Shown here in pieces: positions 28,830 to 33,668 of a stretch of DNA of 54,921 nucleotides. The DNA lies in the NCBI RefSeq assembly GCF_016743215.1, contig NZ_VRZC01000001.1:1-54921 (forward strand), given 5' to 3'. The notes under the pieces are model-generated. The model had not been told where the DNA came from and ran no database searches. It was given only the letters and a program-made list of their open reading frames with translations. Made by a program: the position numbers and the translations under genes. This DNA is from Geminocystis sp. GBBB08 (lineage in GTDB: Bacteria > Cyanobacteriota > Cyanobacteriia > Cyanobacteriales > Cyanobacteriaceae). The first letter of the stretch is position 1; each line of letters starts with the position of its first letter.

Positions 28830-29814
28830 TTATGTTGTTTGAAAAATATTTTGAATCATTTGTTTATCTAAATTTATGGCAATTTTTTCTAATTCTGTTA
28901 CTTGGGCTGAAGATAAACGCCAACCTAATGCACCAATATTCTCTCTTGCTTGATGTAAATTTCTAGCCCCTGGAATTGGAATTGTACCTTGACAAATACA
29001 CCAATTTAGGGCAACCTGACTCATGGTTTTTCCGTTATTTTTGGCGATCGCCTCTAAAGTGTGTAATAAAGGTTGAATTTTCGGTAATAATTCCTTAAAT
29101 AAACCTTTTCTCGGTCCTGATGGTAAACTATTTAAGTCTTGATATTTACCGGTTAAAATACCCAAAGTCAGAGGGCTATAAGCAATAATTTTAATGTCTA
29201 ATTCCTCACATAACTGTTTTAATCCTAACCTCACCAAAGGATAAGTAGATAATAAAGAATATTGCACTTGTAAGGTACTAATTTTTACCCCCTGTTGTCG
29301 TAAATATTCAGAAGCTCGTTGTAAATTTTTTGGTCCATAATTAGATAAACCAATCCCTTTTACCAATCCTTGATGATATAACTGTGCCAACCCCTCCCAT
29401 AATGGTTTTTCTTGCCAAGGGAAGTATTTTGCGGGAGACCAGTGCATTTGAACTAAATCTACGGATCTTCCTAGTCTTTTAGCTGATTTTTCACAAGCCT
29501 TAATCATGGATTGAGGAGTTAAACGCCAAGGATAAACCGCTAATTTTGTGGCAATGGCAACTTCATTTTGATGATCTCCTCTGTATTCTCTAGCAAATTT
29601 ACCTAAAAGAGTCTCACTGCGTCCATTTAATTTACCCGTGCCATAAGAGTCACCTGTATCAAACCAAGTTACCCCTTGAGATACATGAAGATTGAATACT
29701 TGCTGTAATTCTTCATCCATTGTCATCTCATAACCCCAAAGAAACCGATTACCCCAAGCCCATGTGCCACAGCCGATGGGAGAAAGTAATAAATCGTCAG
29801 CTACTCTTATTAAA
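28830..29814 (-). CDS. Aldo/keto reductase, exon 2 (gene split by a group II intron)
   Basis: This is the main part of an NADPH-dependent aldo/keto reductase: LIRVADDLLLSPIGCGTWAWGN, FDTGDSYGTGKLNGRSE (catalytic Asp and Tyr), IATKLAVYPWR (Lys), LVQMHWSP (His), GIGLSNYGPKNL, IAYSPLTLGILTGKY and the C-terminal cofactor region IPIPGARNLHQARENIGAL. Read alone, the frame starts at a GTG at 29831, but those first codons lie inside the intron's domain VI. The natural start is the short exon 1 at 32454-32476. Joining exon 1 to this exon restores one frame, M-T-M-M-E-S-K-I-L-I-R-V-A-D-D, for a 335-residue protein. The substrate is unknown. Expression would depend on intron splicing. Confidence 0.92.
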
Positions 29815-29848
29815 GTAGGAGTAGCCGTCACCGACTAAACCTCTCTAC

Positions 29849-29882
29849 GAACCGTGCATGAAACTTTCACTTCACACGGCTC
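29849..29882 (-). ncRNA. Group II intron domain V
   Basis: On the minus strand the 34 bases begin GAGCCGTGTGAAG and end CATGCACGGTTC, pairing GAGCCGTG with CACGGTTC around an internal GAAA-type loop. This is the catalytic hairpin and best-conserved group II signature. Confidence 0.93.
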
Positions 29883-29896
29883 TTTAAATTATGCCT

Positions 29897-31648
29897 CTAT
29901 GGAGTACAAATCACTGCGTTTTTACTTCTACCTTTAAGGCTTCCGTCTGTTGCAGTTTTACTATCGTGACAATGTCGATGAAGTAACTGTAGATTAGTGT
30001 TTTCGTTTCCTCCTCCTAGTGATTTGGGGATAACGTGGTCGATTTCTACTATGTCACCATCTTTTAAATATAATCCACAGTGGTTACATTTTCCTTTTTG
30101 TCTCTTCATTAGACTAGCTTTTTGATTTGACATTTCAGGATGCTTACCTAAACGACTACACCAATACATTAAATCTCCATCAAAAAGGCTTTTATTCCCT
30201 TTGACTTTGACGTGTCTGACAATGGGGGTATCAGCGTGTTTAAGAAGTTTGTATTTAATACTGCCCTTTTCTTGAGTTCCAAAACACCAGTTTCTCATTT
30301 TTCCGTTAGAATAATCTGATTGCCAATATTTGTCTGCTACCCATGATTTTGACTTCTTAGGATGTCTTCTTTCACTCCATCTCTTAAGTTGTTGATATAT
30401 AATATGATCACAATGAGAATAAGTTTCTTTACTACAGACTGAGCTATAATAATTACTCCAACCTCTGATTATCGGATTTAATTCCTTAATCAACACCTCC
30501 TGTGGAGATGATTTGTGCCTTCTTATGACATCGCCAATCTTTTTGAGATGAGATTTTACTTTACTTTCAGAAGGTTTTATGATAGTCTTGAATCCTAATT
30601 GACTTCCGTTTGTCAATTTACCACTATGACATTTACCCACTGGGTACTGTCTAATGTTAAATCCAAGAAAATCAAAACCAACTTGTCCCTTATGCTCCAA
30701 AAGTGTGTGGGATATTTTGGTTTTACTCGGTTTTAATTCTAGTCCTATTTCTTTCAACCAGTTTTCCATAATTACTTTACATTGCAGAACTACATCTAAG
30801 TCTTTGTGCAGGATTAAAAAATCGTCTGCATATCTTATTAGATTAGGAGTTTGTTCATTGTGTACCTTTTTACCCTTTAAAGTTCTGGCGTATTTCTTGA
30901 CTTCTAATTCCATACCGTGTAAGGCTATGTTTGCCAATAAGGGTGATATGACTCCTTCTTGTGGTGTGCCTTTGTCAGTAGTAATTAACATTTTATTATC
31001 CAAAACTCCATTTTTTAACCATGCTTTCACTTGGTTTGTTAGGGTGGGATAAGTACCTAATTTAGTTAGTAATTTATTATGGTCGAAATTATCAAAACAC
31101 CCGCTAATATCCGCATCTAAAACATATTTTGAGTTAATTTTTATTGAATTGAATATCGCTTGTATGGCATCATGACAGTTTCTAGCTGGTCGAAATCCGT
31201 AAGAATTTTCCTCGAAAGTTGCCTCCCATTGTGGCTCTAAGCCTAGTTTGACTAATGCTTGTAATGCTCTATCTTTTATGGTGGGTATTCCTAAACCTCG
31301 TTTTTCTCCGTTGGCTTTTGGTATCCATACTCTGCGTAACGGATGGGCTTTCTTGCCTACCTTCAGATTATTCACGAGTTCGAGTCTTTGTTTCGATGTG
31401 AGAGACTTTTTACCATCCACTCCTGCCGTCACTTTTCCTTGATTGTCTTGAGTTACTCTACGAGTTGCCCAAAGTTTCCCATAAAACGATGAGATTAGTA
31501 ATCGTTGTAATTTGTGTACTAATTTGACATTGCCACTTTGACTTGCTTTGAAAATGCGCTTCTGTAATCTGAACACCGCAATCTCTACGACTTTCCAGTC
31601 GATTTGATTCCAGAAATTCATTTTATCGATAGATTTTACCTTCGTCAT
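29897..31648 (-). CDS. ltrA: Group II intron-encoded reverse transcriptase/maturase with HNH endonuclease
   Basis: This 583-residue protein has the RT-0 to RT-7 blocks of intron-encoded proteins: AGVDGKKSLT, RRVWIPKANGEKRGLGIPTIKDRALQALV, NSYGFRPARNCHDAI, YVLDADISGCFDNFDH, TPQEGVISPLLANIALHGME, and LIRYADDFLIL with the catalytic YADD. These are followed by GFDFLGFNIRQYP and the maturase X domain (LNPIIRGWSNYYSSV). The C-terminus has a zinc-type HNH nuclease (CNHCGLYLKDGDIVEIDHVIPKSLGGGNENTNLQLLHRHCHDSK) that cleaves target DNA. All modules look intact, so the intron may be able to splice and retrohome. It is unrelated to the Avd/DGR reverse transcriptase type (no DGR RT motif set) and cannot be taken as the missing DGR enzyme. 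It starts at the ATG at 31648. Confidence 0.97.
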   Translation of the reverse strand: MTKVKSIDKMNFWNQIDWKVVEIAVFRLQKRIFKASQSGNVKLVHKLQRLLISSFYGKLWATRRVTQDNQGKVTAGVDGKKSLTSKQRLELVNNLKVGKKAHPLRRVWIPKANGEKRGLGIPTIKDRALQALVKLGLEPQWEATFEENSYGFRPARNCHDAIQAIFNSIKINSKYVLDADISGCFDNFDHNKLLTKLGTYPTLTNQVKAWLKNGVLDNKMLITTDKGTPQEGVISPLLANIALHGMELEVKKYARTLKGKKVHNEQTPNLIRYADDFLILHKDLDVVLQCKVIMENWLKEIGLELKPSKTKISHTLLEHKGQVGFDFLGFNIRQYPVGKCHSGKLTNGSQLGFKTIIKPSESKVKSHLKKIGDVIRRHKSSPQEVLIKELNPIIRGWSNYYSSVCSKETYSHCDHIIYQQLKRWSERRHPKKSKSWVADKYWQSDYSNGKMRNWCFGTQEKGSIKYKLLKHADTPIVRHVKVKGNKSLFDGDLMYWCSRLGKHPEMSNQKASLMKRQKGKCNHCGLYLKDGDIVEIDHVIPKSLGGGNENTNLQLLHRHCHDSKTATDGSLKGRSKNAVICTP

Positions 31649-32453
31649 AAGTTTAATTACATTATTGTCTTTTCATTACATAATTCAAATGTGTACGTCA
31701 GCATATCTTTTACGTTACATAAAAGCGTTGGCTTTTTACACAATCTCTTCCCTAATAATCATGCACTGGTTGTTACTTAAGGTTTTCGACCTCCTTAAGA
31801 GATTAAGAGGGATTACTTCGTTCCTATTTTCCGTATTACCTGACTTTAGACTCTCACTATCCACCGACTCTTTATAGATGTTCCCAGTTTAAGAAAAACA
31901 ACTTACTGGTATGTTAGAGTGTTACCTTTTGGTCTAGCTTGTCAGCCTTTTAGCTAGTTTGGAATAACGATGGTTCAAACGTGAGTTTCTTTCGTAGTCA
32001 TAGTCAGTATGCTAGATGTGTACCAATTTAGGCTATTAGTATTTACACCGTTTAATCCTGCTTTAGCCTATGGGATTACCAGTTCCAAGTGACTAAGGAA
32101 TATGCACTCAACCCAACATCGGGGCGGTAGGCTTTTCACCTACACGAAAAACAAGTTATCAAGGTACTTCTTTTTAGGTTCGGTTATCACTACCTATAGT
32201 GTGCGGTAATTCGCTTGTGTGATTATTACGATCTCTTAACGTTTCCCTTCTTTTAGGTGGTTGTTGAGTATTTCTACTTAACCGTTTCGTGATTATTGAA
32301 CTGTCGGGGTTCTGATTTATTGACCTTCAAAATTGCCTAAAAAGGGCTTATAATTTGTTTTAGGTCATTTTGTACCTTGCTAGGTTTACGTTGTTTAAAA
32401 GCGTCTCTCAGTTATCACTGATTTAACTCAACTTTGACCTAAACGAGTCGCAC

Positions 32454-32476
32454 ATTTTCGATTCCATCATAGTCAT
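32454..32476 (-). CDS. Aldo/keto reductase, exon 1 (first 23 bases)
   Basis: On the minus strand this reads ATG-ACT-ATG-ATG-GAA-TCG-AAA-AT, directly abutting the GTGCGAC start of the intron. Its two leftover bases AT join the first T of exon 2 (29814) to make ATT (Ile) and keep the frame into LIRVADD. This exact fit supports the intron boundaries. Confidence 0.75.
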
Positions 32477-32568
32477 TTTGTTGTTTTAAATTATCATAAA
32501 AGTCAAAATACTTGATATACATTCAAAGTATAATATTATTTTCACAACACTGTCACGTCAAACTAATA

Positions 32569-32916
32569 ATGATTCAAACTAATTTGGAGTTCAATTTTTT
32601 GGAAAATGGTGTAACTCCAACTTTTGCTCGTCATGAGACTTTTCATCCCCGTTGGGGGTGGTTAAAGAAAGGTTTTGATGTGGCATCTAATGATAGTAAT
32701 ATTTTCAACTCCGAAGATGCCCCAGTTAGGTTAGGAGTGGGCAAGAATATGGTTCGATCGCTCCGTTATTGGTGTTATACTTTTAAGATTATTGATACTG
32801 AGTTAGGATTAATTTATCAGCCCAAAAATAGCAAGTATTACCGTTTTCGCTTTGGTAGTAAGACGAATTTACCATCAGTGATAATCGTAGCCCACCCTAC
32901 TCAAAAAATTAAGTAA
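32569..32916 (+). pseudogene. Truncated DUF4007-type protein remnant
   Basis: From the ATG at 32569 the 115-residue product reads MIQTNLEFNFLENGVTPTFARHETFHPRWGWLKKGFDVASNDSNIFNSEDAPVRLGVGKNMVRSLRYWCYTFKIID. FARHETFHPR, GWLKKGFD and LGVGKNMVRSLRYWC are the N-terminal hallmarks of DUF4007 proteins, which are normally about 300 residues. Here homology fades near YRFRFGSKT, where the sequence runs into a GTAGCCCACCCTAC repeat and stops, so about two thirds of the protein is missing. As I recall, DUF4007 genes sit beside PAPS-reductase-like/DndC-related genes in defence-type islands; no such partner remains here. The ORF extends 19 codons upstream without homology. It is most likely a relic. Confidence 0.75.
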
Positions 32917-32974: not shown

Positions 32975-33370
32975 TTAAGAAAAAATAATTGTTTGTAAAT
33001 CTCTTACTTTTTTAATAGTTTCAAAATCTTTATCATTATGAATTAAAATTAAATTATAACTGATAGCTAGTTGAGCGATGCAACAATCAATGCTACTTCT
33101 AACCGTTAAACCTTTACGTCTTAAATCATAGAAAATACGAGCAGAGTTAATCAAAATAGGACTATTTTCTGTAAGATAATCTTGATCATGCAAATAAATT
33201 TCTAATAGCTGCCATTCCTTTTCATTTTTAGCACCTTGTAATAATTCCATTTGGATAAAATGACTCAAAAAGAAAGGATTATCTTGAATAATATTTTCTA
33301 AATTTTTTCTTTTAATTCCTATTTTATCTCTAAAAATATTAACCAAAACAGAAGTATCAATTAGATACAT
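32975..33370 (-). CDS. vapC: VapC-type PIN-domain toxin
   Basis: This 131-residue PIN-domain ribonuclease reads MYLIDTSVLVNIFRDK (first acidic Asp), HFIQMELLQGAKNEKEWQLLE (Glu), RSSIDCCIAQLAISYNLILIHNDKDFETI (the remaining acids in SSIDCCIA and HNDKDF). VapC toxins usually cut initiator or other tRNAs or rRNA. It starts 1 base after the antitoxin stop, a classic vapBC operon. It lies in a repeat-rich accessory stretch between an intron insertion and an orphan gene, which fits a mobile addiction module. Confidence 0.95.
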   Translation of the reverse strand: MYLIDTSVLVNIFRDKIGIKRKNLENIIQDNPFFLSHFIQMELLQGAKNEKEWQLLEIYLHDQDYLTENSPILINSARIFYDLRRKGLTVRSSIDCCIAQLAISYNLILIHNDKDFETIKKVRDLQTIIFS

Positions 33371-33371
33371 T

Positions 33372-33569
33372 TTAGTTATTTCTTAATTCCTTATAATTAT
33401 AGTCTTCTCTAAATTCAATTTTTCCACTTAAATCTAATAAATTCAGTTTTTTTCGATTACGAATTAACTCTTTTAAAGCCATATTTACTAACTCTTTTTT
33501 TGTTCTTACATTAGTTAAACGGAAGGCTTCTTCTAGTAAACTATCATCAAGATCAATATTAGTTCTCAT
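33372..33569 (-). CDS. vapB: VapB-type ribbon-helix-helix antitoxin
   Basis: Using the ATG at 33569, the 65-residue product MRTNIDLDDSLLEEAFRLTNVRTKKELVNMALKELIRNRKK is a typical VapB: a ribbon-helix-helix DNA-binding N-terminus followed by a VapC-binding tail (LNLLDLSGKIEFREDYNYKELR). It would bind and neutralise VapC and repress the operon. The frame extends 18 codons upstream but without VapB character, so I reject the longer form. Confidence 0.95.
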   Translation of the reverse strand: MRTNIDLDDSLLEEAFRLTNVRTKKELVNMALKELIRNRKKLNLLDLSGKIEFREDYNYKELRNN

Positions 33570-33668
33570 TTTCTTATGTAAAATGTGTAAATATAAAAAC
33601 ATTATACAATAAATGATTCTCAATGTCTAATCCTATCTACTTAATGTTTCCTAAACCCAAATTTATTA

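Follow-up and report, generated by a model that had tools for sequence, protein, structure and literature searches.

A putative mobile group II intron in sense within an aldo/keto reductase gene of Geminocystis, with a revised 3' end

The stretch of DNA analysed here, hereafter the window, comprises 54,921 nucleotides from Geminocystis sp. GBBB08, whose genome assembly spans 4.1 Mb in 325 contigs. It very probably contains a mobile group II intron of the CL-type/IIB kind, inserted in the sense orientation into an aldo/keto reductase gene and spliced so that position 32454 is joined to position 29808. Splicing of this intron would best explain the data, and predicts a spliced mRNA. Intron parts, both junctions, exon pairings, an intact intron protein and a restored reading frame can be recognized in the DNA itself, and from these we infer that the gene is transcribed, that the intron is spliced in the cell and that it is mobile. 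The element is a genuine and probably active group II intron residing in a conserved gene. The features of the interrupted gene are as follows:

32454..32476 (-): exon 1, ATG ACT ATG ATG GAA TCG AAA AT, coding for MTMMESK plus AT
29809..32453 (-): group II intron, 2645 nt, GTGCGAC...CTCCTACTTTAAT
29897..31648 (-): intron-encoded protein, 583 aa, with RVT_N, RVT_1 (YADD), GIIM maturase and HNH
29849..29882 (-): domain V, from RF00029 and plastid group II-D5 matches and the fold
29809..29848 (-): domain VI, with a single bulged A29816 and an apical GUGA loop
28830..29808 (-): exon 2, the remainder of the aldo/keto reductase (PF00248), stop included

Intron components and exon pairing

A sequence-only reading had recognized an aldo/keto reductase gene interrupted by a group II intron in the sense orientation, and this identification holds: domains V and VI (29884-29809) match RF00029 with 63.5 bits (gathering 40) and exon 2 carries PF00248. 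The maturase that it described as intact is so, with all four domains found in 31648-29897. Moreover, the intron-encoded protein scores above the TIGR04416 cut-off, and its closest solved relative is the 6me0 maturase (E 2.8e-110, residues 12-570 of 583). By correspondence with the literature the RNA would belong to class IIB, while the protein is assigned to the CL type from the cyanobacterial host, the HNH domain, the plastid-type domain V and the literature rather than from protein phylogeny.

The exon-binding sites were sought as columns in the 5' 800 nt of the intron that co-vary with the exons over 71 distinct insertions, which yielded the following elements:

32461..32466 (-): IBS2 TGGAAT, exon positions -13 to -8, pairing with EBS2 at 6/6
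32454..32459 (-): IBS1 GAAAAT, exon positions -6 to -1, pairing with EBS1
31960..31965 (-): EBS2 ATTCCA, intron 489-494, covariation z 18.9 in 71 introns
31894..31900 (-): EBS1 within TGTTTTT, intron ~554-560, covariation z 18.4 in 71 introns
31859 (-): EBS3 U, intron 595, pairing with A29808, the first base of exon 2

The pairing that the sequence-only reading had put forward as a check is found for both 5' exon elements, EBS2 at all six positions and EBS1 at six of six, including two G.U pairs, in a register that also suits L146, the nearest relative found. In the register of the family EBS1 and IBS1 form only 4/6 pairs, which counts against the model. The EBS3 column is paired in 90% of the 71 insertions versus 39% in the background (z 8.7), and in the window its U pairs with A29808, not with T29814. 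EBS1, EBS2 and EBS3 thus all find partners in the exons, and the EBS3-IBS3 pairing is of the IIB type.

Taken together, these elements outline a probable course of events. In a Geminocystis-like cyanobacterium the intron would have entered a conserved reductase gene only a few codons behind its start, in the sense orientation, and gene and intron would be transcribed together. The RNA would fold with its maturase, and EBS1, EBS2 and EBS3 would pair with both exons. The bulged A29816 would then attack the 5' junction, and 32454 would be joined to 29808 to give an uninterrupted reductase beginning MTMMESKIRVADD... (or MMESKIRVADD...).

Host gene and dependence on splicing

Exon 1 had been described as seven codons plus AT, from ATG 32476, joining exon 2 in frame, and this is confirmed, although comparison with the orthologue MMELNIKVA suggests that the reductase may start at ATG 32470 rather than 32476. 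The junction described here gives MTMMESKIRVADD (reading on: MTMMESKIRVADDLLLSPIGCGTWAWG...) in frame and leaves no gap in the alignment with seven intron-less orthologues, whose protein sequence is the one restored. Intron-less proteins of the same genus start M(I/M)E(S/L)(K/N)IKV, for example, MIESKIKVADN. The reductase frame is intact throughout, with 89% identity to the nearest orthologue, and pairwise dN and dS against the orthologues are 0.06-0.16 and 0.75-1.65, respectively. The dN/dS of ~0.09 versus the closest orthologues may mostly reflect the time before the insertion, since the four other congeneric species examined lack the intron. Likewise, no intron was found at the reductase start in the homologous loci of the relatives examined. 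A close relative of the reductase occurs in 14/14 other family genomes searched (one as a partial match), and in its own genome no second close copy was found, the next best match having 33% identity.

A truncated DUF4007 gene (32512-32916 (+); PF13182, profile positions 1-61 of 288) lies immediately upstream of the reductase on the opposite strand, and 134 nt of it are 90% identical to a DUF4007 gene on a plasmid of Geminocystis NIES-3709. This match to flanking DNA was the only one obtained when plasmids were searched for the same intron. A VapB antitoxin/PIN-domain pair (32975-33623 (-)) is also located upstream of the reductase.

The protein start expected from gene callers falls within the intron, as had been anticipated, since the ORF caller took 29831:

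29829..29831 (-): GTG called as the reductase start by ORF callers, in the GUGA loop of domain VI

This raises the question of whether the reductase is made from unspliced mRNA, beginning at this GTG, with the intron simply taking the place of the original 5' end. The frame is indeed open from GTG 29831, a GAGG lies 8 nt upstream, and in distant orthologues the N-terminal part preceding MGCGTWAWG is short and variable. However, these two elements belong to the structure of domain VI, the GTG being its apical GUGA loop and the GAGG part of its stem; loops of the GNGA/GNAA type recur in relatives of the intron whatever the host gene, and exon 1 still codes for the family sequence ESK. This origin of the protein is, thus, considered unlikely. 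Nevertheless, exon 1 codes only for a poorly conserved N-terminal tail, so that unspliced mRNA is not necessarily useless, and a protein begun in domain VI might work, given how variable the N-terminus is among distant orthologues. Dependence of the reductase on splicing is, on the sequence, plausible.

An equally low probability is given to a recent insertion with poor splicing, by which the reductase would be effectively knocked down and its gene would be drifting. The absence of the intron from the four congeneric species is in line with such a history, but the frame is intact over its full length, at the identity to the nearest orthologue given above, and EBS/IBS pairing is good. Splicing from 32454 to 29808 remains the preferred reading, and it is the position of the 3' junction that had to be corrected.

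The 3' end of the intron

Both splice sites had been called exact in the sequence-only reading. This holds for the 5' junction, 32454|32453, where the intron opens with GTGCGAC at 32453 and where the GUGYG-type boundary GTGCGACTCG is found, as it is in the relatives. The 3' junction, in contrast, had been placed 6 nt early, with the intron ending at 29815 instead of 29809. Its length of 2639 nt and an exon 2 from 29814 have to be replaced by 2645 nt and 29808, as shown by the TTTAAY ends of the relatives, EBS3, the orthologue alignment and the single bulged A of domain VI.

The terminus at 29809 (...CTCCTACTTTAAT, TTTAAT) is followed by exon 2 from 29808, opening AAGAGTAGCT. Related introns of the same order have (A)(C/G)TTTAA(C/T) or a close variant, e.g., CTCTAAC, after domain VI, with unrelated host DNA beyond it; L146 (77% protein identity), which resides in a different gene, has the terminus CCTACTCCTACTTTAAT. 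In one relative, L117, the intron end can be seen directly because its TTTAAT immediately precedes GTGCGATTCG of a second intron, L118, in a tandem arrangement that makes both intron ends visible. As domain VI of the relatives, L117 included, runs on to TTTAAY, the 3' end of the window intron is 29809, not 29815. A longer 3' extension, in which CTTTAA would pair with TTAAAG before domain V, was dropped, TTTAAY being the normal end of domain VI in the relatives. An outside check is provided by the cutA gene that hosts L146, whose Pfam CutA1 match scores 127.6 bits with the corrected join versus 120.1 bits with 6 nt more.

The earlier assignment of the domain VI bulge was made on the wrong 3' end and does not stand. 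With the end at 29809, domain VI has A29816 as its only bulge, at the 8th position from the terminus, and only with this end (AT at 29809) does the intron show a bulged A at 7-8 nt from a terminus in AY. Therefore, A29816 is the branch point that the folding model would predict. Comparison with intron-less homologues, also proposed as a check, confirmed that the frame is restored but showed the earlier join, MTMMESKILIRVADD, to be too long, with two surplus residues right at the junction, while the corrected join is free of gaps. The 6-nt error escaped notice because both joins keep the frame.

A 3' splice site at 29815|29814, yielding a reductase with two extra residues, preserves the frame, ends the intron in AY (CTCCTAC) and allows a domain VI stem to be drawn, but it is hardly credible, as TTTAAY continues after the same domain VI in the relatives, the EBS3 U would oppose T29814, the two-residue insertion is missing in every aligned orthologue and A29816, bulged in the full domain VI fold, would adjoin the intron end.

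Related introns and known systems

The insertion in a protein gene had been described as unusual because bacterial group II introns mostly avoid coding genes, a view that fails for this intron lineage. Among 73 distinct sites, 36 (the window included) lie in sense in a junction-spanning ORF, 8 are antisense and 29 are neither. The excess of sense over antisense (36 vs 8) has a binomial p of 2.5e-5, not corrected for relatedness. To be counted as a sense host, an ORF had to comprise no fewer than 100 residues, with 20 or more on either side of the junction, the window being counted despite its short exon 1. The sample consists of the closest relatives, so that the proportion cannot be read as a genome-wide rate. 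A single scan of named genomes returned two distant relatives only.

The sense hosts form 27 protein groups, one of which, with nine members, appears on reading to include TnpB-like transposon proteins. Pfam matches identify CutA, TruB, PdxJ, NrdB, a cytochrome c oxidase subunit II, a class I/II aminotransferase, a radical SAM protein and a GTPase among the hosts, and on reading of the sequences the last three would be DapL, RlmN and YchF, respectively. When Pfam was applied to nine relatives, the match clearly crossed the junction in six (CutA, TruB, PdxJ, NrdB, the aminotransferase and the radical SAM protein), extended just past it in the oxidase, and stopped or started beside it in the GTPase and a PMT-like protein. 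According to a review, CL introns are found in housekeeping genes of cyanobacteria. It is possible, though tentative, that in this order HNH-bearing CL-type introns are retained preferentially in sense inside conserved genes, leaving many core genes, the window's reductase included, dependent on the splicing of a retroelement and their junctions mis-annotated.

The genome of the window contains one more full-length family member (L145, contig C274; 67% protein identity), in sense in a gene read as a TnpB-like transposon gene. On another contig (C78), positions 1501-1595 of locus L003 match only the first ~80 nt of the intron, at 77%, in a copy apparently truncated or interrupted.

Judging from the survey, core cyanobacterial genes are often interrupted by members of this intron family. 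Gene callers will place the start of such genes at the domain VI loop, and the present case illustrates how an intact frame can conceal a 6-nt error at the 3' end. The junction-spanning sense hosts thus constitute a natural candidate set of splicing-dependent bacterial genes.

Among known systems, the window intron resembles the TeI4-type introns of Thermosynechococcus elongatus (PMC2882425; PDB 6me0) in its reverse transcriptase, maturase and DNA endonuclease domains and in target recognition by EBS1/2/3. The location of one of these, TeI4h, within an essential tRNA gene implies that it splices actively (PMC2882425). However, the similarity is distant, the host is here a protein-coding reductase and the activity of the window intron is a predicted one. 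Introns within protein-coding genes are also described for the cyanobacterium Trichodesmium erythraeum, many with documented splicing in vivo (PMC4649490; Meng et al. 2005, cited in PMC4424553); unlike these, the window intron stands alone and carries an intact protein of its own, being neither ORF-less nor a twintron. A further parallel is L146 in cutA of a congeneric genome (G004): although host gene and target sequence differ, it shares 77% protein identity and the 3' end CTCCTACTTTAAT with the window intron and likewise lies in sense in a conserved gene, whose frame is restored by joining the exons.
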